A DNA stretch of 64,000 bases from Lachnospiraceae bacterium. Lineage in GTDB: Bacteria; Bacillota; Clostridia; Lachnospirales; Lachnospiraceae. The notes below the pieces were generated by a model, which was given only the letters and a program-made list of their open reading frames with translations, had not been told where the DNA came from and ran no database searches. The stretch is taken from assembly GCA_022510745.1 (NCBI GenBank), contig JAFLSY010000011.1, positions 62,001 through 126,000 on the forward strand, read 5' to 3'. The position numbers and the translations under genes are program-made. This document shows, in pieces, positions 5,452-24,837 of the stretch (positions are counted from its first letter, which is position 1; each line of letters starts with the position of its first letter).

Positions 5452-7797
5452 ATGTTATTTGGAAACGGCTGTTGGCTGCAAAAAGAAGGTTGCGGATGCT
5501 TTAGCCCGCAGGAGGTTTATTTTGAAAAGGTAGAAGAAAATAAAGTAACATTGTGTCTGCCTACATCTAGGATCACCACAAGGGGCGCCACTCTTGGCGG
5601 CATTAATCTGACCATGATCATTACTTCTCCGGCACCGGAGGTGCTGCGGGTACAGACTTATCATCATATGGGCGCGTTAAAGAAAAGTCCGGAATTTGAA
5701 CTGTATCAGAACGAGGAACTGCCTCTTAGCGTAACCAGCGATGAAGACAGGCTGACCATAGCAAGCGGCAGTCTGACTTTGGAGATTGAGAAGAAATACT
5801 GGTCCATGACTTATAAGAGAAACGGCGAGACGATTACCCGTTCCGCAGCCAAGGATCTGGCCTGCATGAAGACGAATTGGAAGGGCGACTATTACGATAA
5901 GGGAGACGTTACAGAAACCTATATGCGTCAGCAGCTTTCCATGGGTGTGGGTGAGCTCATCTACGGTATGGGCGAGCGATTTACTGCTTTTGTAAAGAAC
6001 GGTCAGAGTGTGGCTATCTGGAACGAGGACGGCGGTACCAGCACTTATCAGTCCTATAAGAATATTCCTTTCTATATTAGTAATAAAGGCTACGGTGTAT
6101 TTGTAAACCACCCTGAGAGAGTGGAATTTGAAGTGGCAACCGAGCAGGTTACCAAGACGGCGTTCTCTGTAGAGGGCGGCTATCTGGACTACTATCTGTT
6201 CAACGGCCCCACCATGAAAGAAGTGTTGGGAAGATATACGGATCTGACGGGTAAGCCCGCCCTGCCGGCACCTTGGACTTTTGGACTGTGGCTTTCCACT
6301 TCCTTTACCACCAACTATGATGAAGAAACGGTCATGAGTTTCGTAAACGGCATGCTGGATAGAGGAATTCCTTTAAGAACCTTCCATTTTGACTGCTTCT
6401 GGATGAAGGAGTTCCATTGGACAGATTTTACATGGGATTCCAGAGTCTTCCCCGATCCTGAGGGTATGTTGAAGCGCATTAAGGACAAAGGCCTGAATAT
6501 CTGCGTCTGGATCAACTCCTACATTGGTCAGGAGAGCAGCGCCTTTAAAGAGGGTATGGAGAAGGGGTACTTTGTAAAGCGCACCAATGGCGATGTATGG
6601 CAGTGGGATATGTGGCAGCCGGGTATGGCGCTGGTGGACTTTACCAATCCTGCAGCCTGCGAATGGTATCAGGGTAAACTGGCAGAGCTTTTGGATATGG
6701 GTGTGGACTGCTTCAAGACCGACTTCGGCGAGAGAATTCCTACTGAGGATGTAGTATATTTTGACGGTTCCGACCCTAAGAAGATGCACAATTACTATAC
6801 ATACTTGTACAATAAGGTAGTATACGAGATATTGGAGAAGAAACGCGGTAAGGGAGAGGCAGTGCTGTTTGCCCGCTCCGCAACCGCCGGCGGGCAGAAA
6901 TTCCCTGTACACTGGGGCGGCGACTGCTGGTCCGACTATGAATCCATGGAAGAGAGCTTGAGAGGCGGTCTGTCCCTGCTCATGTCCGGTTTCGGCTTCT
7001 GGGCTCACGATATCGGCGGCTTTGAGAGCACTTCCACACCGGATGTCTATAAGAGATGGGTGGCTTTCGGACTTCTTTCCTCTCACAGCCGTCTGCACGG
7101 CAGCACCTCTTACAGAGTACCCTGGGCTTATGATGAAGAGGCTGTGGATGTAGTCAGATTCTTCACCAGACTGAAGGCAAAGCTGATGCCCTATCTGTAT
7201 AAAACCGCTATCCAGGCCAACCGCACCGGTGTGCCCACCATGCGGAGTATGGTACTTGAGTTTACCAATGACAGAACCTGTCACTATGTAGACCGCCAGT
7301 ATATGCTGGGCGATAATTTGCTGGTGGCGCCCATCTTCAACGAAGAAGGCATGGCTGACTATTATCTGCCGGCCGGTCGATGGACTGATTTCTTTACCGG
7401 CGAGGTAAAGGAAGGCGGCTGCTGGGTACAGGAGAAGCACGGTTACTTAAGCGTTCCCATGATGGTGAGACCGGGCTCCATCGTGGCGGTGGGTTCCCAT
7501 GACGACAAGCCGGATTACGATTACGGCGACGGTGTGGAACTGCGTATCTATGAATTGCCGGAGAATGAGGCTGTGTCCACCGTAGTATACGGTATGGATC
7601 AGTCCGAGGAAGTAAAAGTGACCGCTATTAGACAAGGTAAGACCATTACGGTAGATGTGGATACCAAGAAACCTTTCAGTGTCCGGCTGGTAAATACTGC
7701 GGCGAAGGGATTGGAAGGTACGGAGGCTGTATCCGAAGAGAAAGATACGGTTCTGACCGGCGCTTCGGGACATCTGAAGGCAGAATGTGAAGCATAG
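5452..7797 (+). CDS. yicI: GH31 alpha-xylosidase (YicI-like)
   Basis: A 781-residue intracellular retaining alpha-glycosidase. The YicI subgroup is indicated by KTDFGERIP with nucleophile D424 and by HWGGDCWSDY with acid/base D491. The spacing between them is close to that of E. coli YicI. The N-terminal beta-sandwich, the (beta/alpha)8 barrel from about 265, and the C-terminal beta domains are all present. No signal peptide is seen. The expected reaction is removal of alpha-1,6-xylose from the non-reducing end of xyloglucan oligosaccharides or isoprimeverose. The neighbouring surface GH5 and ABC transporter support this. AGGAG precedes the ATG. Confidence 0.93.
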   Translation: MLFGNGCWLQKEGCGCFSPQEVYFEKVEENKVTLCLPTSRITTRGATLGGINLTMIITSPAPEVLRVQTYHHMGALKKSPEFELYQNEELPLSVTSDEDRLTIASGSLTLEIEKKYWSMTYKRNGETITRSAAKDLACMKTNWKGDYYDKGDVTETYMRQQLSMGVGELIYGMGERFTAFVKNGQSVAIWNEDGGTSTYQSYKNIPFYISNKGYGVFVNHPERVEFEVATEQVTKTAFSVEGGYLDYYLFNGPTMKEVLGRYTDLTGKPALPAPWTFGLWLSTSFTTNYDEETVMSFVNGMLDRGIPLRTFHFDCFWMKEFHWTDFTWDSRVFPDPEGMLKRIKDKGLNICVWINSYIGQESSAFKEGMEKGYFVKRTNGDVWQWDMWQPGMALVDFTNPAACEWYQGKLAELLDMGVDCFKTDFGERIPTEDVVYFDGSDPKKMHNYYTYLYNKVVYEILEKKRGKGEAVLFARSATAGGQKFPVHWGGDCWSDYESMEESLRGGLSLLMSGFGFWAHDIGGFESTSTPDVYKRWVAFGLLSSHSRLHGSTSYRVPWAYDEEAVDVVRFFTRLKAKLMPYLYKTAIQANRTGVPTMRSMVLEFTNDRTCHYVDRQYMLGDNLLVAPIFNEEGMADYYLPAGRWTDFFTGEVKEGGCWVQEKHGYLSVPMMVRPGSIVAVGSHDDKPDYDYGDGVELRIYELPENEAVSTVVYGMDQSEEVKVTAIRQGKTITVDVDTKKPFSVRLVNTAAKGLEGTEAVSEEKDTVLTGASGHLKAECEA

Positions 7798-7840
7798 TCT
7801 CATTTTGGATTAAGCTATTTTAAAATATGATAAGTTATAA

Positions 7841-7875
7841 GGGACCGATTACAAGGCTGTGATCGGTTCCTTTTC
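7841..7875 (+). terminator. Rho-independent terminator after the GH31 gene
   Basis: GGGACCGATTACA and TGTGATCGGTTCC form a stem around AGGC, followed by TTTTC. Confidence 0.75.
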
Positions 7876-8061: not shown

Positions 8062-9849
8062 ATGAAAAAGTTCAAAAAGTTGTTGGCTGCTGTTTCTGCC
8101 TGCACGCTTCTGTTCTCTTCGCTGACAGTATCTGCTGCACAGCCTACGGACGGTTTGGCAGACGGCACCGCTTACCTCAACATCAACAATGCCGATTGGG
8201 GCGATTTTGATGCTGAGTGGACAAATGTAGAGATTACCGGCGATGGTTCCTACACTGTTGCAATGAAAGCGGCAGAGCCTCAGAATCTGGCACAGTTCAA
8301 TGCGCTGGAGGTAGTTAACGGTGAAGCTGTTCTCGGTACAGGTTGTGTCCTGACTGTAGACAGCATCAAGATCAACGGTGAAGATGTAGCACTTCAGGGC
8401 GCAAGCTTTACCTGTTCTGCAGACGGCGGCGGTGTTACCACTCGTGTAAATATTTACAATGAGTGGAATGCTCCCGATGATACTGCAACCGCAGGCAATG
8501 ATGGTCATTTGGATCACCGTGTAGCAGAAGGCAATCTGATGGATGCAACGGCAATGCTGTTCTCTTCCGATTACTTGACTTTAGGCATTACGGATATCGA
8601 GGTTGCTTTCACTGTATCCGGTTTCGGTACAGCCGCACCTATTGGTGAAGCAGCTGAGGTGACCGCAGAAGGTCCTGCAATCGCACACCTGAACATCAAC
8701 AAGGGCGATTGGAGCGAGTTTGATGCAGAATACGGCGATGTTGAAATCACCGGTGACGGCAGCTATACCGTAACCATGACTGCAACAGAGCCTGTAGATA
8801 TGGGCGCATTCAATGCACTGGAAGTAGAGAACGGTGAGCTATTAATGGGTAACGGCTCTGTTATTACTATTGACAGCATTGTGATCAATGGCGAAGAGAT
8901 TACGCTCGAGGGCCCCAGCTACACCTGTTCTGCAGATGGCGCAGGCATTACCACCCGTGTAAACCTTTACAATGAATATAATGATCCCGATGATACTGCA
9001 ACCGATCAGCGTGTAGCAGATGGCAATCTGATGGATGCAACGGCTAGAGTGATTCCTGCAGATCTTTTGGTAGGCGTTACCAGCCTGGAAGTAAACTTTA
9101 CAGTTTCCAACTATGGCGTTTTCAACGATGCAGAAGGCGGAGATAGCGGCAGCGCAGCAGCTGTTGATTTAAACGGCACCTATCATGGATATCTGGGTAT
9201 CCAGACTCCGAAGTTCTCCTTCCGTAACGCATTTGACGATGCGACCTACGGCCGCGATACCGAGTACTTCAATCAGGTTACTGGTTGGGATGAGTCAAAC
9301 AATGCACTTGTACTTCCCGGTACTTTCCATGATGTTGAAATCAAAGGAAATGGTACTTACACCGTGTCTGTAGACGGTCTGGAGTTCCCTAACGGTGAAT
9401 TTGACAGCCAGGATTACATGAACTTGATCTTCCTGTCTACCGATATTCCAAACAGCGGTGAGATCACTATCTCCGATGTAAAATTAACTGTTGACGGCAG
9501 GGATGTAGCGCTTGCAGCAGCCGGCGCTGTGCTGGGCGAAGACAAGGCTTACATGGAAGTAGGTATTCAGAACATCTGGAGCGATGATATCAAGGAAATC
9601 GGTTTCTACACCACTCCGATGAGCAGCATGAGCATTACCTTTACTGTAAGCGGCTTTGCATATGATGCAGCTCCTGCTGAGGAAGCACCTTCCACTGATA
9701 CAGCTCCCGTAGAGAGTGCAGCTCCTGCAGAAACTACCGAATCCGGCAGCAATACCGGTTTGATCGTTGGTATTGTAGCAGCAGTAGTTGTTGTAGCAGG
9801 CGGCGCAGCAGGCGTTGTGGTAGCAAAGAAGAAGAAAGGCAATAAGTAA
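8062..9849 (+). CDS. Membrane-anchored surface protein with three glycan-binding-like modules
   Basis: A 595-residue protein with a Sec signal peptide (cleavage near VSAAQ, about residue 26). It has two closely similar modules (about 32-195 and 205-360; both start with a LNIN-x2-DW motif and contain EITGDGSYTV and FTCSADG/YTCSADG). A third, more diverged module (about 375-545) contains GNGTYTVSVDG. A Pro/Ala/Glu linker, one transmembrane helix and a KKKKGNK tail follow, so it is held by the membrane and not by sortase. No catalytic residues are evident. A similar module occurs in the GH5 enzyme at 15047. I infer a surface glycan-capture role; the module is not one I can name. A terminator follows directly, which suggests high separate expression. 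Confidence 0.7.
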   Translation: MKKFKKLLAAVSACTLLFSSLTVSAAQPTDGLADGTAYLNINNADWGDFDAEWTNVEITGDGSYTVAMKAAEPQNLAQFNALEVVNGEAVLGTGCVLTVDSIKINGEDVALQGASFTCSADGGGVTTRVNIYNEWNAPDDTATAGNDGHLDHRVAEGNLMDATAMLFSSDYLTLGITDIEVAFTVSGFGTAAPIGEAAEVTAEGPAIAHLNINKGDWSEFDAEYGDVEITGDGSYTVTMTATEPVDMGAFNALEVENGELLMGNGSVITIDSIVINGEEITLEGPSYTCSADGAGITTRVNLYNEYNDPDDTATDQRVADGNLMDATARVIPADLLVGVTSLEVNFTVSNYGVFNDAEGGDSGSAAAVDLNGTYHGYLGIQTPKFSFRNAFDDATYGRDTEYFNQVTGWDESNNALVLPGTFHDVEIKGNGTYTVSVDGLEFPNGEFDSQDYMNLIFLSTDIPNSGEITISDVKLTVDGRDVALAAAGAVLGEDKAYMEVGIQNIWSDDIKEIGFYTTPMSSMSITFTVSGFAYDAAPAEEAPSTDTAPVESAAPAETTESGSNTGLIVGIVAAVVVVAGGAAGVVVAKKKKGNK

Positions 9850-9873
9850 TTTATAATCGACTTTCTTAAGATA

Positions 9874-9915
9874 AAGAGAGGATGCTTGACTTTGGTCGGA
9901 CATCCTCTTTTTTTT
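9874..9915 (+). terminator. Terminator between surface protein and permease genes
   Basis: GAGGATG (9878-9884) pairs with CATCCTC (9901-9907), followed by an eight-T run. It would reduce transcription of the permeases relative to the surface protein. Confidence 0.85.
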
Positions 9916-10129
9916 AATGTATTTATAGCGAAAAAATTACTGTATTTTCTATCAAGTATTTGCGGTATCTTTCACCCTGTTTTCTCTTGTATAATCTATG
10001 ATAGGGGTCAAAAGTGGGAAATCTTTCCCTCTCATGGGTTTTACGCTACGCAAAACCTGTCGGTCTGTGTCATGCTACAATAGCAAAAGACTGAATAATT
10101 CCAAAACAGCCGTAGCGATGGAGGTTATA

Positions 10130-11584
10130 ATGAAAGAGAATATAACGGGAAAGGAAAAGACTGCCGGTTATCTCTATTATGTGGCAAGAATAGCAGCACT
10201 GGTTTCAGTGTTTCTGATATTCTTCCCTGCTTTTAATCCGGCGAAGATCTGCGGTTACATAAGTAAGAATATGTCGTTGTTTACTGCGGGCATTTCTTAT
10301 TCCGGACTGGTGGAACAGTGTACCCGTGCCTTTGCACAGAACTGGATACAGAAGTCCTCTTTTGTGATTCTGTTCATTTCCAGCATGGTCATTTGTCTTG
10401 GTATTGCCGGAGTTGCGGCTATGGGCTGTATGTCTTTGGGCAATCTTAAGCTGAAGAGATTGGGCAACTGGTTCGGCATTGGCGGTTCTGTGGCACAGCT
10501 TCTGGGCCTGTTAGGCATTTATTTAGCTTACAGTCAGGTGGCGCAGACCACAAGAGCTGAAAAAGTGGAGCCCAGCTACCCTTTAACAAACAACTTGCTC
10601 TTTATCATTGTGGCGGTTGTGGTGCTGATCACGGTTCTTGCGGCGCAGCTTCTGTTACCGAAGGCTGAAAAAGAGGACAAATATGAGATGCAGTCTCAGT
10701 ATAAACTGTTCTTAATGTTTTTGCCCTTTGCGTTGTTGATATTCTTATTTTCCTATTTACCGCTCTACGGTTGGAGATATGCTTTTTATGATTATACATC
10801 GGGCGGAACTCTCTCCAGTGAGAATTTTGTCGGGTTCAGATGGTTTGCATCCGTATTTCGGAATGCCGCTACCAGAAGTGACATAGTCAGAGTGCTGCGG
10901 AATACCCTTGCCATGAGCGGGCTGGGTATTGCCACAAGCTGGTGTGCCATGGCCTTTGCGATTTTCCTCTCCGAGGTCAAGACTCCTTGGGTGAGACGGT
11001 TCGTACAGACCTTTACCACCATCCCTAACTTTATAAGCTGGGTTTTGGTGTATGCGATTGCTTTTGCAATCTTTGCGTCCGACGGTTTTGTCAGCAGTAT
11101 ATTTGTGAATGCCGGTATCTGGGACCAAGGGGTGAATATGCTGCAGGATAGTTCCCATATATGGCTGAAGATGCTCGGCTGGGGTATGTGGAAGGGCATC
11201 GGCTGGAGCGCTATTATTTACATTGCGGGTATATCCGGTATCGATCAGCAGCTCTATGAAGCGGCTACCGTGGACGGCGCAGGCAGATTCCAGAAGATGT
11301 GGCATATCACAGTGCCCGGTCTGATCTCTACCTATATGGTACTGCTGCTCATGTCCATAGCGGGTATTTTGAGTAACGGTATGGATCAGTATCTGGCATT
11401 CTACAATTCAGCCAATATCAATACGATCGAAGTACTGGATCTCTATGTATATCGAGCAGGTCTGGTCAATGGTTCCATATCCTTCTCCACCATGGTCGGC
11501 ATGGTAAAATCCGTGATCAGCGTAATCCTGCTCTTTGCTGCTAATGGTATTTCCAAGCTGGTCCGCGGTGAGAGTATCGTATAG
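10130..11584 (+). CDS. ABC sugar permease, LplB/UgpA type, with N-terminal extension
   Basis: A 484-residue inner component of a carbohydrate ABC importer. The C-terminal 290 residues are a standard MalF/LplB-like permease with the EAA loop EAATVDGAGRFQKMW. The first 190 residues are extra for this group and hold about four predicted helices with an extracytoplasmic loop. ATG 10130 follows GGAGG. Its partner permease and a binding lipoprotein follow. No ATPase gene is present, as is usual when a shared MsmK-type ATPase serves several importers. The likely cargo is an oligosaccharide released by the surface GH5 enzyme. Confidence 0.9.
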   Translation: MKENITGKEKTAGYLYYVARIAALVSVFLIFFPAFNPAKICGYISKNMSLFTAGISYSGLVEQCTRAFAQNWIQKSSFVILFISSMVICLGIAGVAAMGCMSLGNLKLKRLGNWFGIGGSVAQLLGLLGIYLAYSQVAQTTRAEKVEPSYPLTNNLLFIIVAVVVLITVLAAQLLLPKAEKEDKYEMQSQYKLFLMFLPFALLIFLFSYLPLYGWRYAFYDYTSGGTLSSENFVGFRWFASVFRNAATRSDIVRVLRNTLAMSGLGIATSWCAMAFAIFLSEVKTPWVRRFVQTFTTIPNFISWVLVYAIAFAIFASDGFVSSIFVNAGIWDQGVNMLQDSSHIWLKMLGWGMWKGIGWSAIIYIAGISGIDQQLYEAATVDGAGRFQKMWHITVPGLISTYMVLLLMSIAGILSNGMDQYLAFYNSANINTIEVLDLYVYRAGLVNGSISFSTMVGMVKSVISVILLFAANGISKLVRGESIV

Positions 11585-11595
11585 GAGGTGTGAAA

Positions 11596-12564
11596 ATGGC
11601 TAAGACAGCACAGGAAAAATTAGACGCGAAAGCGGAAAAGAGATATGCAAAACTCCATAAAAGGCAGTTTAAACTGACCACTGGGGACATTGTTTTCAAT
11701 ATACTGAACTATACATTTTTTATTGTGTTTACAATATCATGTGTATTCCCTTTTTATTATCTGTTTATCAATACCATTTCTGAAAACAGCTTGGTAAGCA
11801 GGGGTGCGATCAACTTTATTCCTCGGGGAATTCACCTTACGAACTATACGAATCTGATAAAATCCAGCGAGATACTGCAGGCATTCGCAGTTTCCATCGG
11901 CAGAACGCTCTTAGGAACGGCACTGATGGTATTGGCTTCCGCATTTATCGGCTATGTTGTGACCAAGCAGCAGATGTGGCACAGAAAGTTCTGGTACCGT
12001 TTCCTGATCATTACCATGTATTTCAACGCAGGTACCATTCCCTGGTATTTGAATATGTCCATGTTGGGACTGACCAATAACTTCATGGCATACATTATTC
12101 CGGGTATTGTGGCTCCCTACAATATTATTCTGGTAAAGACCTATATCGAGTCCATCCCGGCAGAATTGGAAGAGAGCGCATTTATGGATGGCGCGGGCTA
12201 TTTTACTATTTTCCGGAGTATTATATGGCCGCTGTGTAAACCCATATTGGCAACCATTGCGATTTTCGGCGCCGTAGGCCATTGGAATTCCTTTACGGAT
12301 TCCATGATCCTGATGCAGAATGCACCGCAGTTTTACACGCTGCAGCACCGTCTGTACTTGTATTTGAATACGACTACCAACATAGGCGCGCTGATGAATG
12401 GTGGAAGTTCTGCCGGAATGGATACGATTATGCAGAGTGCGCTGAATGCCAAGACGATCAAATATACCATTTCCATGATATCTATTATTCCCATACTGCT
12501 GGTATACCCTTTCATGCAGCGGTATTTTGAAAAAGGTATTATGCTGGGTGCCGTTAAGGGTTAA
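11596..12564 (+). CDS. ABC sugar permease, LplC/YtcP type
   Basis: The second transmembrane subunit of the importer, 322 residues with six predicted helices. The ATPase-contact loop reads EESAFMDGAGYFTIFRSIIWP, and the C-terminus MLGAVKG is typical of the LplC/YtcP group. The ATG at 11596 has AGGAGG seven bases upstream, so it is preferred over the GTG at 11590. It begins 11 bases after the first permease, which fits coupled expression. Confidence 0.93.
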   Translation: MAKTAQEKLDAKAEKRYAKLHKRQFKLTTGDIVFNILNYTFFIVFTISCVFPFYYLFINTISENSLVSRGAINFIPRGIHLTNYTNLIKSSEILQAFAVSIGRTLLGTALMVLASAFIGYVVTKQQMWHRKFWYRFLIITMYFNAGTIPWYLNMSMLGLTNNFMAYIIPGIVAPYNIILVKTYIESIPAELEESAFMDGAGYFTIFRSIIWPLCKPILATIAIFGAVGHWNSFTDSMILMQNAPQFYTLQHRLYLYLNTTTNIGALMNGGSSAGMDTIMQSALNAKTIKYTISMISIIPILLVYPFMQRYFEKGIMLGAVKG

Positions 12565-12596
12565 TGGCAGACCACTAATATAAAGGAGGATAAAAA

Positions 12597-14276
12597 ATGA
12601 AAAGGATGAAAAAGGCAGTAGCAATGCTGTTGGTATTTATCATGACCGGCAGCCTGCTCTCAGGCTGTGGAAACAGTAAGGGCAAATTGATTACCCTGAC
12701 GATCTACAGCCAATTGGCAAACTACTCCGGCGAAATGCAGGGTTGGTTTGCAAAGATTTTTGAGCAAAGATGGGGCGTAAAGGTGAATTTGGTTCCTGAG
12801 ACCGGCGGCGTTTACGATACCCGTATGGAGGCCGGTGACTTGGGAGACATTGTGATCTTAGGCAGCGACGGGGCCGATTTTGTGCAGGCTATAGAAGCCG
12901 GACTGCTGTTAGATTGGGAAGAAGACAATCTGCTGCAGGAGTACGGTCCCTATATTTGGGAGAATATGCAGCCGGCATTGAATAAGAACAGAGAAGTATC
13001 CGGAGATGGTAAAATCCATGGTTTCGGATACAATGTAGCCGCAAGCTCAGACAGCCATGACGCATTTATGTATACCTGGGATATTCGCTGGGATCTGTAT
13101 GAGCAGTTAGGGCATCCCGAGGTAAACGATATGGACGATTTGCTGGAGGTTCTGGCGGATATGCAGGAGCTCTCTCCTACCGGTGATGACGGTAAGAAGA
13201 CATATGCTATGTCCCTCTGGCCTGACTGGGACGGTACTCTGGTAATGTATCCGAAGTCTTTGGCTACCGCGTTCTACGGACCGGACGGTGATTTTGGCAT
13301 GGGACACTATAATCCGCAGACCGGTGAGTTCCAAGGTGCGCTGGATGAGGGAAGTATCTATCTGGAGATGGTAGAATGGTTTAACAAATTGTACAGAAGA
13401 GGACTCTTGGACCCGGATTCCATGACCCAGAAATACGATCAATATATTGAAAAAGCGCAGAACGGAAACGTATTGTTCTCCATTTTTGACTATGCGGGTT
13501 CCCAGGCTTTCAATAATGACGCACATTTTTCACAGAATCAGATCATGCTTCCTTTAGTACCCACCGAGGCAACACCTATCGTAGGTGGATTAAGCCCTCT
13601 GGGCGGTTCTCGCGTATGGTGTATCGGCGCCAACACCCAGTATCCGGAGATTTGCATGGAGATTATCAACTGGCTGTGTACGCCCGAAGGTGTTATCACA
13701 ATGGAATACGGTCCTAAAGGTCTGACTTGGGACTATGACGAAAACGGCAAAACATATTTTACTGATTTCGGTAAGACTTGTGTGGAGGACAGAACCACGC
13801 TCATGCCTGATGAATGGGGCGGCGCTACCTTCAATGACGGCGCTTTCCAGCCGAATAACAGGACATGGACAATCGCTGATATTAACCCTGAATCTGGAGA
13901 GCCCTACGACAAGCAATACTGGGCAAGCAATCAGGTACCCGAGGGACGATGTGACGCGGAGAGAGATTGGAGAGCTTTCACCGGTGCTGAAACCGTACAG
14001 GGATATATGGATTCCAGAGATAAGTTTCTGGTAGATCAGCCCACCACTTACTCATCAAGCAAGAAGGATGCTGAGTTGGACAGCATTTATTCGCAGGTGG
14101 CTACCTGTATCAAGGACTATAGCTGGAGAGCCATCTATGCAAATTCGGAAGAAGAATTTGATCAGATCATCAGCGAAATGATAGAGAAAGCAAATGCCTA
14201 CGGATATGCTCAGTGTATAGAATGGGATAAAAAGGAAGCTGAAATCAAGAACGCTCTGCAAGAGCCTTTGAGATAA
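12597..14276 (+). CDS. Extracellular sugar-binding lipoprotein of the ABC importer
   Basis: A 559-residue lipoprotein with signal peptide and lipobox (LLSGC, Cys about 25). It is an LplA/family 1 solute-binding protein: TLTIYSQLANYSG at the start of the fold, MEAGDLGDIVILG, and many aromatic residues suited to stacking on sugars. The length matches the large oligosaccharide binders that go with LplBC permeases. An AGGAGG precedes the ATG. It should deliver oligosaccharides to the two upstream permeases. Confidence 0.92.
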   Translation: MKRMKKAVAMLLVFIMTGSLLSGCGNSKGKLITLTIYSQLANYSGEMQGWFAKIFEQRWGVKVNLVPETGGVYDTRMEAGDLGDIVILGSDGADFVQAIEAGLLLDWEEDNLLQEYGPYIWENMQPALNKNREVSGDGKIHGFGYNVAASSDSHDAFMYTWDIRWDLYEQLGHPEVNDMDDLLEVLADMQELSPTGDDGKKTYAMSLWPDWDGTLVMYPKSLATAFYGPDGDFGMGHYNPQTGEFQGALDEGSIYLEMVEWFNKLYRRGLLDPDSMTQKYDQYIEKAQNGNVLFSIFDYAGSQAFNNDAHFSQNQIMLPLVPTEATPIVGGLSPLGGSRVWCIGANTQYPEICMEIINWLCTPEGVITMEYGPKGLTWDYDENGKTYFTDFGKTCVEDRTTLMPDEWGGATFNDGAFQPNNRTWTIADINPESGEPYDKQYWASNQVPEGRCDAERDWRAFTGAETVQGYMDSRDKFLVDQPTTYSSSKKDAELDSIYSQVATCIKDYSWRAIYANSEEEFDQIISEMIEKANAYGYAQCIEWDKKEAEIKNALQEPLR

Positions 14277-14308
14277 GCGTAAGTAAAATAGCAGATATTT
14301 ATTATTTG

Positions 14309-14337
14309 AAAGGGCTGCCGGGCAGGCAGCCCTTTCT
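14309..14337 (+). terminator. GC-rich hairpin after the binding-protein gene
   Basis: GAAAGGGCTGCC and GGCAGCCCTTTC form a 12-bp stem. No T-run follows, so it may stabilise the mRNA 3' end or act as a weak terminator before yesL. Confidence 0.55.
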
Positions 14338-14354
14338 GAATACAGAGGTAATAT

Positions 14355-15050
14355 GTGAAAAAGTATTTTTTTACATGTTACAGAAAGGCATATTTTAACA
14401 TGAAATTTTTTAGTGTGGACGGCCCGTTATACAGATTTATATCCAGACTTTGGGATATGATTAAGTTAAATTTTCTGTGGTTGCTCTTTTCCCTGCCTAT
14501 CGTGACGATAGGGGCGGCTACGGTAGCAGCATACAGTGTAACTTTAAAGATGGTGGACGAATCGGAAGGGTATGTGGGAAGACAGTTTGTAAAGGCATTT
14601 AAGGAGAACTGGAAGCAAGGGATTCCGCTGGGGCTGCTGGGATTGTTAGCCGCATATGTCATTTATCTGGATTTTGAACTCTTCAATAAGCTGGAGAACA
14701 ATCCCATGATTTTTCTGATTGCGGGTATTGTTGCCGTTTTTGTGTTCGGTGTGGCGTTCATCTATGCCTTTCCTTTGAGTGCGCGCTATGAAAATACACT
14801 GTTAGAAACACTGAAAAATTCAGCCAGAATTGCAACCCGTTACTTTGTAAGAACGCTGTTTTTGGCAGCGGTATTGGCAGTGGAGGTTGTGATAGGGATT
14901 TTCAATACCACCACGCTTTTCTTTGCTATTTTAATCGGACCGGCCTGTTTGATGCTGACGATCAGCGGCTTTGCCATCTATTTTTTCAGGGAGATAGAGC
15001 GGGAACCCGGTTCCGTACGAGAAAAAGAGGAGGAGAAGGAGGAAGAATGA
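14355..15050 (+). CDS. YesL-type DUF624 membrane protein
   Basis: A membrane protein of up to 231 residues with about five helices, of the DUF624/YesL family found next to LplABC and YesMN in Firmicutes. The diagnostic N-terminal stretch is VDGPLYRFISRLWDMIKLN, followed by LPIVTIGAAT. The GTG at 14355 has AGAGG six bases upstream. The ATG at 14400 gives the usual family start, so the first 15 residues are uncertain. The acidic C-terminus overlaps the next gene by four bases (ATGA), implying translational coupling to the GH5 gene. Its biochemical role is unknown. Confidence 0.85.
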   Translation: MKKYFFTCYRKAYFNMKFFSVDGPLYRFISRLWDMIKLNFLWLLFSLPIVTIGAATVAAYSVTLKMVDESEGYVGRQFVKAFKENWKQGIPLGLLGLLAAYVIYLDFELFNKLENNPMIFLIAGIVAVFVFGVAFIYAFPLSARYENTLLETLKNSARIATRYFVRTLFLAAVLAVEVVIGIFNTTTLFFAILIGPACLMLTISGFAIYFFREIEREPGSVREKEEEKEEE

Positions 15051-17788
15051 AAAGAAAGAATCAATTAAAGCAGCTCTTTGCAGGGCTGTGTGCAGGCGTT
15101 CTGCTGTTTACGGATCTGCCTGCATTAAGCCTATCTGCAGCGGAAAATACGCAGACGGTGAGCAGTCAGATGCCTTTTAGAGAGTTAAGGGCAGACGAAA
15201 TGGTAAGGGAGATGGGGAACGGCTGGAATCTGGGAAATACCATGGACGGACATACCGGTTTCACTCCTTCGGAAACCCTTTGGCAGAATGTAGAAACCAC
15301 ACAGGGACTGATGAAGGCACTGCACGATCTCGGATTCAATACAGTACGTGTGCCCGTCACCTGGGGTACCATGATTGACGACGAGAATAACTATCAGATT
15401 GACGAAGCATGGATGAGCCGTGTACAGGACATTGTGGATTATTGCGTCAATATGAATATGTACGTCATTATCAATGTGCATCATGACGGTGCGGAACAGG
15501 CCGGTTGGCTGCATATTGCAGCTGAAGATCTGGATCCGATCAAGGAGAAATATGCGGCAGTCTGGAAGCAGATTGCAGAGCGTTTCAAAGATTATGACGA
15601 ACATGTCATATTTGAATCCATGAACGAGGTTACAGGACCCGGAAACAATGTTGCGCAGGATACCGCAATCATCTGCGAGTTTAACCAGATATTTGTAGAT
15701 ACCGTGCGGGCTACAGGCTCCAACAATGCTTACAGATGGTTGTCGGTGCCGGGCAGGTATACCAATATTGAGAATACCACTAATCCGAAAAACGGTTTTA
15801 AACTGCCTGAGGATACGGTAGAAAACAGATTGTTTGTAGCGGTACATTATTATGACTGGAGTTTTGGACTGAACGAGAATGACTTAAAGACTACCGATTT
15901 TACGGATCAGAATGTAGCCCAGCTGGGGTTAGACTTTCAAAAGCTGATAGATACTTTTACTTCCAAGGGCATTCCTGTTATTCTGGGTGAGTACGGTGCC
16001 ATCAATAAAAACAATACGGAGAACCGGGCATACCATATGGAGGTTGTGACCAGAATGTGCCAGCAGGCCGGTGTGGTGCCCTGCTATTGGGATCAAGGCT
16101 GGTATGACCTCAGTCTGGAACCGGATCTTAGTTTCACGCTAATTGACAGGGAAACTTATGAGCAGGTTTACCCGGAAATCATATCCGCTATGATGCGGGG
16201 ACTCTTCCTTTCCGGCCCGGGGGACTATAGCGATATTGAACGCAGTCCCGTAATCAAGGAAATCACGGATTTAGGAAGCTATAAAGGAACTTTTTTACTG
16301 CATATGGGTGAGGTAGAGCGCATTGATCTGAGTGACAGAGTGGATAAGCTTGCCTTTAATGATGTAATACTGTGGAAAAGTGCGGACGAAACCGTAGCTA
16401 CGGTTAATCCGGATGTAGCAACGGATGTCTGGGCGGCCTATGTCCATGCGGCAGGCATCGGCAATACGGTGATCACGGCCTATTCCCAGAGCGGTAAGGC
16501 AGTGCTGGAGATTCCGGTAGAGGTGCGGGCAGCCGTAACGGAAAATTCCTGCACCGGCATTACTGTAGAGCAGAATGCCTATACCATGACTGCGGGAGAA
16601 TCCCTGTATCTGAATGCGGCTATGGAGCCGGCGGATACGGATACATTCCTGACCTATCGCTCCTCCGACCCTTCGGTGGTAACGGTTTCCAAGATAGGTA
16701 AACTGGTAGCAAAGGGTAAGGGCAGTGCCTATATCATCATCACTTCATCCGACGGTATGACCTGTGTTGTGCCGGTAACGGTGGAAGAGAGCGAAATAAG
16801 CAAAGAGATTTCGTTGGCCTTGAATGTATATTTCAATGATAGTGCCCACAACTATTATAGTAACGAGTACGGCAGTGCCATTAGTATCAGCGAAGACGGC
16901 CAGTACACCCTTTCCTTCGATTGTACGCAGGACCTTTCTTCCGCGGCAGGTGAGGCCGGTGTAACGGGACTGAACGATCTGACGGCCATCTATATCAAAG
17001 ATCATAGCGTCACCTTGGGCAGAGCGCAGAAATCACCTCTGGTATCCTGCGATATTTACTATGATTCTATTAAGGTAGACGGTGTGGAATTGGAAGTACA
17101 TATGGACGGTCCCAAGTCAGCCATTAAAGCATCCGGTATTCTGGATACTAACGACCCCATTAACTCATGGGATGGTTCTGTGATTGAAGAGGTATCAGTA
17201 AGTAACCATGTACTGAATTTTACCAGCGTAACAGATCCCCAGAAGGTGGAAGTCACCTTTACTATCAGTAACCTAGTGTTTGACGAAGGTGCTGAAATGC
17301 CGGAAGCTGCGGAAGCTACGGCTATAGAGGCAGCGGAGAGCAGCGTGAGCGTAAGCAATGGGGCACCCGCCACGATCATGGCACAGATTGCTCCTGCGGA
17401 CGCCGGAAAAGTAGCGTTTGTTTCTTCCGATGCTTCCGTTGTGTCCGTATCCAATCAGGGTATAGAGGATGCAAACGGCTCCGTATCTGTAAAAGTCTAT
17501 GCCCATGGAACCGGAGAAGCGGTGATCACTGCCTATACCACTAACGGACTGACGGCAGAATTTACTGTCAGTGCAGAAGTTTTCGAAGAAGAGAGCATCC
17601 CGGAAGGGAATGATCCGGACACCTCAGAAGAGCAGCAGCCGGAAGATGTGACTGCGCCGGAGGAAACAGAAAGCACAAGTCAAAACAGCGGGATTGTAAG
17701 TACGATTCTTCTGATTTTAGGAGCTCTTGTATTGGGAGCTGGATCTTTCTTCGGTGCTCTAAAACTGGCAGGAGGGAAGAAAAAATAA
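15047..17788 (+). CDS. Surface-anchored GH5 endoglucanase with Ig-like and binding-like modules
   Basis: A 913-residue secreted enzyme. It has a signal peptide (to about 31), then a GH5 barrel (about 47-385) of the GWNLGNTMD type, with acid/base E194 in ESMNEVTGPG and nucleophile E315 in VILGEYGA. BIG2-like Ig domains follow at about 405-490 and 500-585. A module similar to those of the surface protein at 8062 lies at about 590-755. Another BIG2-like domain, an acidic linker, one transmembrane helix and a GGKKK tail complete it. This GH5 type includes endo-beta-1,4-glucanases and xyloglucanases. With the GH31 alpha-xylosidase nearby, xyloglucan is the likely substrate, but mixed-linkage glucan or cellulose is possible. 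Confidence 0.92.
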   Translation: MKRKNQLKQLFAGLCAGVLLFTDLPALSLSAAENTQTVSSQMPFRELRADEMVREMGNGWNLGNTMDGHTGFTPSETLWQNVETTQGLMKALHDLGFNTVRVPVTWGTMIDDENNYQIDEAWMSRVQDIVDYCVNMNMYVIINVHHDGAEQAGWLHIAAEDLDPIKEKYAAVWKQIAERFKDYDEHVIFESMNEVTGPGNNVAQDTAIICEFNQIFVDTVRATGSNNAYRWLSVPGRYTNIENTTNPKNGFKLPEDTVENRLFVAVHYYDWSFGLNENDLKTTDFTDQNVAQLGLDFQKLIDTFTSKGIPVILGEYGAINKNNTENRAYHMEVVTRMCQQAGVVPCYWDQGWYDLSLEPDLSFTLIDRETYEQVYPEIISAMMRGLFLSGPGDYSDIERSPVIKEITDLGSYKGTFLLHMGEVERIDLSDRVDKLAFNDVILWKSADETVATVNPDVATDVWAAYVHAAGIGNTVITAYSQSGKAVLEIPVEVRAAVTENSCTGITVEQNAYTMTAGESLYLNAAMEPADTDTFLTYRSSDPSVVTVSKIGKLVAKGKGSAYIIITSSDGMTCVVPVTVEESEISKEISLALNVYFNDSAHNYYSNEYGSAISISEDGQYTLSFDCTQDLSSAAGEAGVTGLNDLTAIYIKDHSVTLGRAQKSPLVSCDIYYDSIKVDGVELEVHMDGPKSAIKASGILDTNDPINSWDGSVIEEVSVSNHVLNFTSVTDPQKVEVTFTISNLVFDEGAEMPEAAEATAIEAAESSVSVSNGAPATIMAQIAPADAGKVAFVSSDASVVSVSNQGIEDANGSVSVKVYAHGTGEAVITAYTTNGLTAEFTVSAEVFEEESIPEGNDPDTSEEQQPEDVTAPEETESTSQNSGIVSTILLILGALVLGAGSFFGALKLAGGKKK

Positions 17789-17863: not shown

Positions 17864-17903
17864 GCGGGGCAGAGGTTTATTCCTCTGTCCCGCCATTTTT
17901 TTT
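17864..17903 (+). terminator. Convergent terminator shared by GH5 and yesN genes
   Basis: GCGGGGCAGAGG and CCTCTGTCCCGC form the stem. T-runs lie on the right for the plus strand and, via AAAAAA at 17858-17863, for the minus strand. The right arm is also coding sequence for the last residues of the minus-strand regulator. Confidence 0.85.
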
Positions 17904-19448
17904 ACGGAATTCTACGGGGCTTTCCCCCACATATTTCCTAAATTTTTTATGAAAATAATCCACATTGCGGTAGCCCACCCGTTCCGCGATTTCATAGACC
18001 TTAAATTTCTTTTGTAAAAGAAGCTGTTTGGAATGTTCTATCCGTATATGATCCACATAGGAGTTGAAGCTTTCACCCACTGTCTTATTGAAAATTTTTC
18101 CTAAATAAGCACTGTTGTAACCAAACAGGGGAGCAATCGCTTCCAGCTTGATATTGTTCTGATAGTTGTGGTCTATATAGTAGAGGATGTCATCCAGTAC
18201 GCTGTTGCGGTTAGGGTTGCCGGTAGCGCTCATGATCATTTCAAACTGCTCCGACAAAAACTGTATAATTTGGTATAAATACTGTTTATAAGCGATAAAC
18301 TCAATGGCTTTAGAATTAGTGGGAAAAGGAATCGTCACCGTGCTGTAGACCAGATTGATTTTTTCCTTGATACGCAGATATAAATCCGTCAAAAACAGTT
18401 GTACTTCTACAATGCCGTTTTCGACATGATAGAGATAATTTTCCAGTCTGCTCAAAGTCTCAGATACGTTTTTGCGGTTAAAAGTCTGTAGATAACCCAC
18501 CAGATTATCAGTGTATTCGGAAAGGGCTTCCGGCGTGAGCCGCTGCATGCTCTGCCCTAAAGCAGAAAGCTCTTCATAGCCTATAGTGTGTTGTCCCTGT
18601 TCACAAAAAAAGCGACGGATAATGAGCTTGCGGGCATCCTCGTAGGAGAGAGGGATATCATATGGTGCTTGTACAGGGCGTCCGTACGCCAGAAAAAACG
18701 TGTCCATGGGGCTGCCCGCCTGCGGGGGGGTTGCTCCGTGATAATGAGATAAAAAATCATTGAAGCGATTGAGTGCATAGGTGCCCTTTAGAAGAATAAT
18801 ATGTTTTCCGTCCTCTTCAAAATTGCTGAAGGTATGCTCTTCTCTGTTGGTGACTTTTAATAAATCTGCAAAACTGTAGGCCGGACTTTCCGAAGTCCGG
18901 CTGAAATTTTCACATATTACTACTTGATAAGCGTCCGCACGCAGTTCCAGATCCTCCATGTCTTCGGGGGATAATATGACGGGCGTGTCATATTGCCCTG
19001 TGACCAATTCGCGCAGAATGACATTGCGGGCTTTGCGTTTTAATAGTTCCATGCTGTCAGTACGGCGGTTTTCACGGTCTAAGGACTGCTTTATTTTTTG
19101 AACGGTTTCGAAAAGCCCGTCCTTATCAATGGGTTTGGTAAAGTAGGATTCCACACCGTAACGAATGGCCTCTTGGGCGTATTTAAAACTCGAATAGCCG
19201 CTTACAACAATAAAGCGGCCCTTAAAATTCTGCTCTCTGGCAGCTTTTATGACCTGCAATCCCTGTAATTTGGGCATACGGATATCCATCAGAGTCAAGT
19301 CCGGCTGCAGGGAAAGAAGCATCCGGAGAGCCTCCTCTCCGTCAGAAGCCTCCCCGCAAATGGAAAATCCCATGGCATTCCAGTCCATTATGGATTTTAG
19401 CCCGTCTCGTATAAACACATCGTCATCTACGATTAAAACAGAATACAT
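17877..19448 (-). CDS. YesN-type response regulator with AraC DNA-binding domain
   Basis: A 523-residue cytoplasmic regulator. The receiver domain (about 1-120) starts MYSVLIVDDDVFIRDG, with phospho-acceptor Asp in LTLMDIRMPKLQG. A long helical middle follows. The C-terminal AraC/XylS double helix-turn-helix (about 420-520) has FGYNSAYLGKIFNKTVGESFNSY and VGYRNVDYFHKKFRKYVGESP. The ATG at 19448 has GGGAG upstream and starts the receiver correctly. Its partner would be a YesM-type sensor kinase, but no kinase gene is next to it. It faces the glycan locus convergently and probably activates it in response to oligosaccharides. Confidence 0.93.
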   Translation of the reverse strand: MYSVLIVDDDVFIRDGLKSIMDWNAMGFSICGEASDGEEALRMLLSLQPDLTLMDIRMPKLQGLQVIKAAREQNFKGRFIVVSGYSSFKYAQEAIRYGVESYFTKPIDKDGLFETVQKIKQSLDRENRRTDSMELLKRKARNVILRELVTGQYDTPVILSPEDMEDLELRADAYQVVICENFSRTSESPAYSFADLLKVTNREEHTFSNFEEDGKHIILLKGTYALNRFNDFLSHYHGATPPQAGSPMDTFFLAYGRPVQAPYDIPLSYEDARKLIIRRFFCEQGQHTIGYEELSALGQSMQRLTPEALSEYTDNLVGYLQTFNRKNVSETLSRLENYLYHVENGIVEVQLFLTDLYLRIKEKINLVYSTVTIPFPTNSKAIEFIAYKQYLYQIIQFLSEQFEMIMSATGNPNRNSVLDDILYYIDHNYQNNIKLEAIAPLFGYNSAYLGKIFNKTVGESFNSYVDHIRIEHSKQLLLQKKFKVYEIAERVGYRNVDYFHKKFRKYVGESPVEFRKKNGGTEE

Positions 19449-19584
19449 AAGTTCTCCCGCTTCCCAAATTGGCAAATTGCATCTTCTTTAGTGTAGAAGT
19501 GTTTGAAAACTTTGTCAAGAAGTGTAATGTAAAAACTATACGGCGGACGGAAAATGTGATAATATAAACAGAAAGAAGGAAGGT

Positions 19585-22146: not shown

Positions 22147-23586
22147 GTGAACAAACTGACAGGAGTACGGCTGACGCCGGCAAAATGCGCGGTAGATTTA
22201 GGAGACGGCAGCGAAAGAGGGTTTTATGTAAACCAAGATTATATTCTTCAAAAAATGCACAGACCTCACCGAGGCGTCAATCTGATGTACTGCTATTATC
22301 CCTTGGATGAAACCTGGCCTGTGCGGGCGCAGGATGCCTATGCGGACAAGGAGGTTTCGTTTGCCTGGGATTATCCTTATGACAATTATTTTCCCTATCT
22401 GGGAGGCTTAGGCGGCAGCAGGGATGGCGAGCCCTTTACCTGTATGCGGGATGTGAGACGGCATGGGCAGGACGTGGTGCTGACCCTGACCTGTGATCCC
22501 CATGTGGACGATGAGAAGATTATTGCCATCGCCAAGGATCTGCGTACTTTCGGCAGAATGATGCTGCGTTTAAATCACGAGGCTACGGGCGATTGGTTCT
22601 CTTTTAATAAGAGAGCGTCCTACCAGGAAGTAGCGGATTTCTTTGTTAGATTTCACAAGATTGTGAAAGAATATGCACCCAATGTCAAGACCATTCTCTG
22701 CATTGGCGGCGTGGAGGATGTAAACTCGGAAAAGATTACCAAGGAGGAAGAATTTGCCGAGGCTGTAAGGACGACGGATATTTGGTCTGTGGATAAGTAT
22801 ATGGCACTGAACTGGGGCTGGCCTTATGAGGTGGCGGAAAAGGACAACAGCCAGCACAAAAAAGAAGATTCCGCCTATGTCTATGAAATGACAAAGCGCA
22901 GCTGCAAGCGCTATCAGGAGCTGTGCGGCGGAGAGAAGAAGCCCATGCTCATGTCTGAAATGAATGCGGACGGCGATGTGACCGGTCCATTCGATCAGGT
23001 GAAGATGGTACAGGAGTTCTGCCAATTGATAAAAGAAGATCCGGAAAGATGGTTCAGCGGATTCACCTTCTATCAGTTCAGGGACGATGGCAGACTGGGA
23101 CTGGAGATTACCGACCCCAACAATCCGGAAGTGGGTATTGAACAGCCTCTCTTAGCAGCATACAGGGATATTATCAATGACGATTTCTTTAAACCGGGCA
23201 TGGAGCCTGCAGGCGATAAGGAACTGCCCGTTACCCTGCGCTGGGGCGGTGCCGAGGATGCGGAAGGTCTATGCATGGAGCTTGTATTTGAGGGCAATCC
23301 GGTATTTGCGGAAGCGAACTTTAAGGGTGCGCTTGCTGAGGCCAATCTGATGTTGGAAATAAACGGCAGATGGTTTTACAAAGCCCCGGGGGTTACTTTT
23401 GTGGATTTCATGCCTGCATTCTTCGAGCAGAAGTTAAGCGCTCCCTGCAGCATGAAGCTGCATATCTTTGCACCTCCGGCAACCGGTGAGAACGACCCTT
23501 CCCAGGGCGAGGACTGGCAGGAGAACTACTACTATACCTTAACGGAACTGCCGGATATCCGCCTGCGTTTTGAGCCGATCATGTAA
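22147..23586 (+). CDS. TIM-barrel glycoside hydrolase-like protein (GH26-like)
   Basis: A 479-residue protein without a signal peptide. The segment MLRLNHEATGDWFSFN (E145) resembles the GH26 acid/base motif. E271 in LMSEMNADGD sits where a nucleophile would be, at the end of a later strand. WFSGFTFYQFRDDGRLGLE fits a barrel C-terminus, and about 100 residues of beta-rich sequence follow. The start is GTG at 22147 with AGGAGG upstream. The family assignment is by motif resemblance only. Its position at the end of the hemicellulose genes supports a carbohydrate role. Its final Met and stop lie in sequence shared with a duplicated downstream gene. Confidence 0.6.
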   Translation: MNKLTGVRLTPAKCAVDLGDGSERGFYVNQDYILQKMHRPHRGVNLMYCYYPLDETWPVRAQDAYADKEVSFAWDYPYDNYFPYLGGLGGSRDGEPFTCMRDVRRHGQDVVLTLTCDPHVDDEKIIAIAKDLRTFGRMMLRLNHEATGDWFSFNKRASYQEVADFFVRFHKIVKEYAPNVKTILCIGGVEDVNSEKITKEEEFAEAVRTTDIWSVDKYMALNWGWPYEVAEKDNSQHKKEDSAYVYEMTKRSCKRYQELCGGEKKPMLMSEMNADGDVTGPFDQVKMVQEFCQLIKEDPERWFSGFTFYQFRDDGRLGLEITDPNNPEVGIEQPLLAAYRDIINDDFFKPGMEPAGDKELPVTLRWGGAEDAEGLCMELVFEGNPVFAEANFKGALAEANLMLEINGRWFYKAPGVTFVDFMPAFFEQKLSAPCSMKLHIFAPPATGENDPSQGEDWQENYYYTLTELPDIRLRFEPIM

Positions 23587-24056
23587 GATGGTATCATTTG
23601 GTCATATATTATGTGTGGGTGACTTTCTTTACCGTGATGATACTGGTACCGTTTTGTGGCGGAATAGGTAGTCAAGTTGTTGCGTTTTATAAACTGCATA
23701 CGAGGTATAATTATGTGCATAATGATGGTAATCGAGATGAACTGAGCAAGGACCTGCCGGATGGGGAGTATATTTTTGGGTATGAGATCTTAAGGTCTAT
23801 AAAACCCGGAAAGTTGGTGAATGAGGTCATCCCCGAAATTATAGAATACCAGCGGGGGGTTCAACAGCGGATACCGCATTCATCTTTTGAGGGTTATAAT
23901 CTCGATGCGGATTTTAAACTGGAATATGACGTTGAAAATGATAAATTCCTGCTGCGGCTGGATAGAGAAATAGCCGGAGAAATTCTGGTAGAGAATACAT
24001 GGTTTTTCAAACAGCTTTATTTTCACTATTATCGTGATGTACTGGTAAAAGAATAA
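23579..24056 (+). pseudogene. 5'-truncated copy of the membrane protein gene at 24253
   Basis: From CATGTAAGATGGTATCAT (23580 on) the DNA matches 24367 onward of the intact paralogue and continues to the same C-terminus (ending YYRDVLVK). About 115 bases encoding the start and the first helix are missing, and the homologous sequence begins exactly at the stop codon of the GH26-like gene. The remaining reading frame could still give a 152-residue product from an internal start, but no good ribosome site is seen. Confidence 0.8.
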
Positions 24057-24252: not shown

Positions 24253-24837
24253 ATGGATAATTTGGCATTTATCCCGTTAGGCGTGTTATTATTTCTGTTT
24301 ATCAGAATGTCGGCAAAACGGGCGGTATTTTATAAACATCAATCAGGCAAAAAAGAGCTGATAGACCATGTAAGATGGTATCATTATGTCATATATTATG
24401 TGTGGGTGTCTGCTTTTACTTTAGTAATACTGATACCTTTTTTTCCCAGAATTAATGAGCAGATTGCTGCATTTTATGCCTTACATACAGGGCATAGGTT
24501 TGTGTACACGAGTGACAACGGAAAAATGGGCAAGGATTTGCCGGACGGGGAATTTCTTACAGGGTATGAGACCTTAAGAAATATAAATTCGGATGAGTTA
24601 ATAAATGAGATTATTCCCTCAATCATAGAATATCAGCGTGGATTTCAACAGCAAGTACCGCATTCTGCTTTTGAAGGATATAATCTCAGTAGGGATTTTA
24701 CGCTGGAATATGATACTGAAAATGATAAATTCCTACTGTGGCTGGATAGGGAAATAGCCGGAGAAATTCTGGTAGAGAACACATGGTTTTTTAAACGATT
24801 ATATTTTCACTATTATCGTGATGTGCTGGTAAAATAA
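24253..24837 (+). CDS. Small membrane protein of unknown function, intact paralogue
   Basis: A 194-residue protein with an N-terminal helix (about 4-20), a basic loop, a second helix (about 42-62, YYVWVSAFTLVILIPFF) and a soluble C-terminal domain rich in acidic and aromatic residues. I do not recognise it. The C-terminal domain is strongly conserved with the truncated upstream copy (LDREIAGEILVENTWFFK in both), so it is the constrained part. It is followed after 17 bases by a secreted protein gene and probably cotranscribed with it. Confidence 0.65.
   Translation: MDNLAFIPLGVLLFLFIRMSAKRAVFYKHQSGKKELIDHVRWYHYVIYYVWVSAFTLVILIPFFPRINEQIAAFYALHTGHRFVYTSDNGKMGKDLPDGEFLTGYETLRNINSDELINEIIPSIIEYQRGFQQQVPHSAFEGYNLSRDFTLEYDTENDKFLLWLDREIAGEILVENTWFFKRLYFHYYRDVLVK

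Follow-up and report, generated by a model that had tools for sequence, protein, structure and literature searches.

A membrane-anchored multi-module protein as a probable xyloglucan-capture component of an apparent Lachnospiraceae import operon, and its apparently undescribed module family

Six genes at positions 8062 to 17788 of the Lachnospiraceae DNA analysed here (a stretch of 64,000 nucleotides, called the window below) form an apparent operon encoding a binding protein, an ABC importer, a DUF624 protein and a GH5_4-like enzyme. We read this as an operon for surface capture and import within a Gram-positive xyloglucan utilisation locus, and its first product, P0001, as a non-enzymatic, anchored glycan-binding protein, and we put the probability of this reading at roughly 60%. 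Its starting points can be seen directly: the architecture of the proteins, their homology, the gene order and the xyloglucan-type enzyme content. From this context we infer that P0001 binds glycan and probably captures xyloglucan at the cell surface; the function class of the protein is well supported and xyloglucan is the probable ligand. The modules of P0001 belong to a conserved and apparently undescribed family.

Surface glycan capture has been well worked out in Bacteroides. Gram-positive fibre degraders that have no cellulosomes must also keep a soluble polysaccharide at the membrane before it is cut and imported, and the means by which they do so is less clear. The P0001 family is a conserved candidate for this, for which both the ligand and the binding residues can be predicted, and since it is present in cultured species the question of capture is directly testable. 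The modules also offer a probable new family of carbohydrate-binding modules (CBM) for xyloglucan.

P0001 (595 amino acids, 8062-9849, forward strand) begins with a signal peptide read from the sequence (about residues 1-26, 8062-8139). Sequence comparison then defines modules A1 (about residues 36-192, 8167-8637) and A2 (about 208-355, 8683-9126), both of the subtype that we call M12, followed by the membrane-proximal module A3 (about 372-540, 9175-9681), which is of subtype M3. A linker of about 25 residues, made of Pro, Thr and Glu, leads to a transmembrane helix (566-588) and the tail KKKKGNK, with no LPXTG (9757-9846). A1 and A2 are 64% identical and both contain the CSADG stretch, which is not in A3. 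The first-pass annotation had described three copies of one module, two of them with CSADG. There are indeed three related modules and CSADG is confined to A1 and A2, but as A3 is a separate subtype without this stretch, 'three copies' becomes two close copies plus a divergent one. The absence of an enzyme, also claimed there, agrees with a Pfam scan of the whole protein, which gave no enzyme domain. P0001 shows features of the surface glycan-binding class: it is secreted, surface-anchored and non-catalytic, and it is encoded together with an importer and a glycanase of one glycan pathway.

The C-terminal helix with a Lys-rich tail is common to P0001 and the GH5 enzyme P0002, neither of which has an LPXTG, as had been noticed in the first pass. 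A helix with a basic tail ends 58 of 62 complete binding-only relatives (a set whose enzyme-free status was checked with Pfam for P0001 and ten others), and an LPXTG-like motif, as expected of a sortase-type anchor, occurs in none of the 62.

The other genes of the apparent operon, all on the forward strand, encode ABC importer permeases of the LplB type (9998-11584) and the YtcP type (11590-12564), both assigned by homology, a lipoprotein substrate-binding protein (SBP, 12597-14276), a DUF624 membrane protein (14355-15050; PF04854, E 8e-18) and P0002 (15047-17788). The largest gap between the six genes is about 150 bases. The sole PDB relative of the SBP at E <= 0.001 is 9PMY (Athe_2052; E 2e-11). 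P0002 is an anchored enzyme with the catalytic-Glu motifs NEV and GEYG; its closest PDB relatives are endoglucanases, one of them annotated as GH5-4, and a xyloglucanase, and we take the closest matches other than the annotated one to be GH5_4 as well. Upstream lies a GH31 alpha-xylosidase gene of the YicI type whose product has no signal peptide (5452-7797, forward; NF007940, 1227 bits against a cutoff of 606; YicI, E 1e-277). A terminator-like hairpin (7839-7872, forward strand) separates it from P0001. A second, strong hairpin, with 12 pairs and a T run (17864-17893, forward), follows the GH5 gene, and an AraC/YesN-type response regulator gene, identified by homology and part of the recurring neighbourhood, lies downstream on the opposite strand (17877-19475). 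Such hairpins are not proof of termination; 13 terminator-like sites were found where 8.9 are expected by chance. The Athe_2052-related SBP, the two permeases and the nearby GH31 gene are what is expected of a Gram-positive xyloglucan ABC importer. The host genome measures 3.16 Mb.

P0002 also carries a module, G (about residues 586-747, about 16787-17335, forward strand; sequence and profile comparison), which was compared with those of P0001. Between single sequences, the local score of A1 and A3 is 87 (maximum of 60 among 1000 shuffles) and that of A2 and A3 is 73 (shuffle maximum 71, again with 1000 shuffles). G scores 82 with A2 (shuffle maximum 65), 68 with A1, equalled by 1 shuffle in 1000, and a non-significant 44 with A3, where 45 of 1000 shuffles were as high. 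Profile comparison of the subtypes gave a probability of 97.9% (E 4e-13) for M12 and M3, 97.5% (E 5e-12) for G and M12 and 94.7% (E 6e-8) for G and M3, against a best control value of 4.2% (E 0.01), the controls for each pair being 60 column-shuffled alignments and a reversed one. The three profiles align so far above the controls that, on this sequence evidence, the module common to P0001 and P0002 is real, with G a distant relative. The similarity that the first-pass annotation saw between the two proteins is borne out in this way at the level of family profiles. Its placing of the module between Ig-like domains stands in part: a Big_2 domain above the cutoff precedes G (503-570), but the domain that follows is Ig-like by sequence and only weakly supported in Pfam. 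We group M12, M3 and G as subtypes within a single candidate new CBM superfamily.

A check with domain models and structure prediction had been proposed in the first pass. In Pfam, CBM families included, no subtype rose above a curated cutoff when P0001 and P0002 were scanned whole together with the M12 and G members and a 16-row M3 alignment. NCBIfam, searched with P0001, P0002 and 64 M12 members, likewise gave no match above cutoff. An ordinary known domain was considered and rejected: CBM_6 on P0001 is sub-threshold (17.9 bits against a cutoff of 28.9, E 0.0039), and this and the other sub-threshold matches, Glucodextran_B (4 of 64 M12 members) and Shr-like_HID, are short or inconsistent. 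Searches of the PDB by sequence, using phmmer and profiles of the modules, gave nothing convincing. The M12 profile matches the repeats of an iota-carbonic anhydrase (7c5x_A) weakly, over 48 positions in the NGE...YTCSADG...TRVN stretch (E 0.0011), which is probably chance.

AlphaFold2 produced confident and nearly all-beta models of A2 (64-row alignment, mean pLDDT 94.5) and A3 (24 rows, mean pLDDT 93.9). Foldseek against the PDB found no significant match (best E 0.29 for M12 and 0.042 for M3), and neither did VIA-align 2 (best Z 4.7 and 4.8, respectively); CBM29, CBM22 and CBM28 appear among the insignificant structure matches only. The lack of a significant match does not show a new fold, and the description of both models as beta-sandwiches is a reading of their secondary structure and of the kind of weak matches obtained. 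In the literature searched, which mostly lies outside subscription journals, we recognised no paper describing P0001 or its module, and the module is not described in the available parts of PMC10318527, PMC8810776, PMC10076258, PMC5320581 and PMC8990778. The two first-pass suggestions, a Gram-positive counterpart to the surface glycan-binding proteins of Bacteroidetes and an undescribed carbohydrate-binding family, both agree with these results, given the GH5_4-like partners, the importer operon, the xyloglucan enzymes and the lack of a Pfam match above cutoff or a significant PDB relative.

Conservation points to a putative binding site. In 64 M12 sequences, Arg95, Asn97, Asn100, Tyr31 and Phe46 are invariant (A2 numbering), position 102 is occupied by Trp in 59 sequences and by Tyr in the other five, and Trp13 is kept in 56 of 59. 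An Asn-x-Trp-like motif occurs at the aligned place in most M3 and in all 16 G sequences, and the strand and loop that carry it are the predicted site.

A relative of P0001 is present in 21 of 299 genomes of the Lachnospiraceae, M3 (E <= 1e-6) in 16 and G in 14. The one genome listed from the same genus has no P0001 relative, M3 or G, and the locus is therefore patchy. Scanning contigs for the module gave 77 named loci, mostly from Lachnospiraceae metagenome-assembled genomes (MAGs) of rumen and gut but including Eubacterium ruminantium FB3002 (L088), Lachnospiraceae bacterium C6A11 (L081), some Ruminococcus and Oscillospiraceae, and two Treponema MAGs. Of the binding-only proteins in them, 37 are multi-module, usually M12-M12-M3, and 27 have a single module; the loci also hold 36 GH5 enzymes with one C-terminal M12 (two in L129). 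Every module-bearing enzyme in these loci is a GH5, of a type that resembles GH5_4 endoglucanases and xyloglucanases. Because ORFs were called by length, five of the 77 loci (L084, L086, L094, L115, L132) show no module ORF, and in two more (L082, L097) only the GH5 is seen, a longer antisense ORF having presumably been kept in its place. G is found in three placements in the family sample: after the catalytic domain, as in P0002; before a GH5 that also bears a C-terminal M12 (five cases: L141-L144, L151); and in proteins without a GH domain, of which two are lipoprotein-like and one is helix-anchored.

Of the multi-module proteins, 36 are followed by 1.5 kb or more of sequence, and in 35 of these LplB lies directly downstream, on the same strand and within 900 bases; in the exception (L120) a module-bearing GH5 stands between the two. 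The flanks of the 37 multi-module loci contain GH5 with M12 (17 loci), GH29 (15), GH31 (14), GH42 (5), GH74 (5) and a sensor kinase (18), enzyme types being assigned by phmmer with one or two queries each; these counts are lower bounds, as 13 of the loci are shorter than 17 kb. Among the 24 loci of at least 17 kb, 19 have one or more of GH29, GH31, GH42, GH74 and module-bearing GH5, 14 have at least two of these, and five have none within 10 kb. GH5 with M12, GH29, GH31 and GH42 occur beside binding protein and importer in L045/L080, L081 and L088. Pfam confirmed the fucosidase, GH31, GH42 beta-galactosidase and histidine kinase of L045 and the fucosidase and GH42 of L043, and the GH74-like protein of L060 has xyloglucanases as PDB relatives. 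In the family sample, 8 of 16 M3 proteins with readable flanks, that of the window included, precede LplB (read by eye). In L180 the order is M3-anchor, LplB, YtcP, SBP, DUF624, G-only anchored protein, AraC; this is the gene order of the window with the GH5 enzyme swapped for a bare G module.

The pointers to xyloglucan within the window are the YicI-type alpha-xylosidase, the SBP and the GH5, whose closest matches are endoglucanases and xyloglucanases. Athe_2052 binds XXXG with a Kd of 14 nM, according to the available part of PMC12710961. An alpha-xylosidase of the YicI type above cutoff is present in 11 of the 21 genomes with a P0001 relative and in 63 of the 278 others (p 0.006; counted by eye, the 21 including some with only a GH5-borne module match). 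The link at genome level is real but moderate, and with the enzyme in only 11 of 21 genomes, half use something else or another glucan. The plant glucans first suggested as ligand can be narrowed to xyloglucan for the multi-module form, by context. The 15 loci whose anchored proteins are all single-module have neither an importer nor xyloglucan enzymes (a GH94 is present in one); with such relatives outside these loci, the superfamily as a whole cannot be called a xyloglucan binder, and ligands probably vary across it.

We infer binding, its residues and hand-over to the SBP along the following lines. The outer modules A1 and A2 would bind xyloglucan by its beta-1,4-glucan backbone, at a conserved site including Trp13, Tyr31, Arg95, Asn97, Asn100 and Trp/Tyr102 (A2 numbering), and A3 would position them just outside the membrane. 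As the linker is short, the modules probably act inside or just within the cell wall, close to the SBP. The held chain would be cut by the anchored GH5_4-like enzyme, which has a related module in G; the oligosaccharides would enter through the SBP and the LplB/YtcP permeases, driven by an ATPase whose gene lies elsewhere; and the cytoplasmic GH31 would strip alpha-xylose, other enzymes finishing the breakdown. A more ambitious version, which we regard as less likely than not, is a clostridial analogue of SusD and the surface glycan-binding proteins (SGBP). It would be a modular platform whose gene directly precedes that of a CUT1-type ABC importer: the membrane-anchored M3 would be its constant part and cooperate with the importer, and the ligand would be set by outer modules that vary (M12 pairs or triplets, or other unnamed repeats). 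M12, M3 and G would then be the first known members of a new CBM clan, one with which GH5 enzymes are equipped as well.

The same capture role could serve a beta-1,4-glucan other than xyloglucan, or a wider range of them (mixed-linkage glucan, glucomannan or amorphous cellulose), as with broad CBMs such as CBM72. GH5_4-type enzymes act on other beta-glucans too, the relatives of P0002 include a beta-1,3-1,4-glucanase, and module-bearing GH5 enzymes also occur away from importer genes (L112, L113, L119, L123); the incomplete association with the alpha-xylosidase points the same way. We nevertheless find this rather unlikely, in view of the GH29, GH31, GH42 and GH74 genes that recur beside multi-module proteins and of the kinship of the SBP with Athe_2052.

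It is improbable that M3 and its anchor serve as an importer accessory, docking the SBP or shuttling oligosaccharides with no capture of polysaccharide. The near-constant place before the permease gene would suit such a role, as would the minimal proteins of one M3 plus anchor found there (L056, L058, L180), but M3 proteins occur without an importer (in 8 of 16, and in split genes), and M12 also occurs in secreted GH5 enzymes, which fits glycan binding. Least probable is that the modules are inert beta-sandwich spacers or general adhesins. Pilins and MSCRAMM domains are among the weak best structural matches (Z <= 4.8) and single-module anchored relatives lie outside glycan loci; against this stand the invariant Arg/Asn/Trp pattern, the enzyme partners in the 77 loci, which are all GH5, and the co-occurrence of the modules with xyloglucan genes.

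The proposed capture of xyloglucan by P0001 has parallels in known systems. CBM72-bearing endoglucanases belong to GH5, and the source enzyme of CBM65 is Eubacterium cellulosolvens Cel5A. CBM72 resembles our modules as a beta-rich C-terminal GH module of rumen bacteria with key aromatics (available part of PMC4725902), but its six conserved aromatics, sought as a spacing pattern (C5614-1 spacing, relaxed), were matched in none of 294 module sequences; residue spacing thus lends CBM72 no support as the identity of the module, without being decisive. CBM65 is a xyloglucan-binding module of GH5 enzymes in rumen Clostridia (available part of PMC4954948); it was rejected as the identity of the module, since Pfam CBM65_1, a model that works in the same genome, matches none of the M12 and G members. 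Separately, a 646-amino-acid frame of that genome (C1:339572-340669) has three CBM65_1 domains and is another xyloglucan-type binding protein.

SGBP-A/B of Bacteroides ovatus are, like P0001, non-enzymatic surface proteins in a xyloglucan locus beside an importer and a GH5 endo-xyloglucanase (PMC12710961, in part). P0001 differs in its C-terminal helix anchor, its Gram-positive host and an ABC importer rather than SusC. The SGBP modules are presumably unrelated to M12, M3 and G. The xyloglucan loci of Ruminiclostridium cellulolyticum (with GH31, GH42 and a two-component system; PMC4780118) and Anaerocellum bescii (with a GH31 alpha-xylosidase; PMC12710961) both have an ABC importer without its own ATPase gene and share the import and debranching half of the window. 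Their xyloglucanases, however, are cellulosomal or secreted, and the available parts of these papers name no anchored binding-only protein, a Fig. 12 legend mentioning one gene of unknown function. Sas20 of Ruminococcus bromii, a Gram-positive bacterium of the gut, binds glycan at the cell surface and is not an enzyme, but its ligand is starch, it is associated with the amylosome and it has other modules (PMC9112005, in part).

Several further observations were made. The outer repeats of some M3 proteins (L015, L017, L018, L019, L021-L023; for example, of the GDIEENGNxRIEIYNEYG and AGGYNEWG types) have no convincing Pfam match; by their look they are either additional branches of the superfamily or capture modules unrelated to it. 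Ruminococcus and other Clostridia (L075, L076, L085, L090, L103, L109, L114, L117, L118) encode M3 and M12 in two neighbouring genes, each for an anchored protein, and beside these there is neither an importer nor a xyloglucan enzyme; the neighbours in L117 are DHHW/AlgX-like and FkbH-like. Both Treponema MAGs (L107, L131) have a GH5 with a C-terminal M12 beside LplB, YtcP, SBP and DUF624 homologues, which suggests transfer between phyla or a binning error. In the window itself, positions 22147-23586 encode a 479-amino-acid protein that is TIM-barrel hydrolase-like by sequence, with no Pfam or NCBIfam match, and 23598-24056 and 24253-24837 encode adjoining, similar small membrane proteins that apparently arose by duplication.
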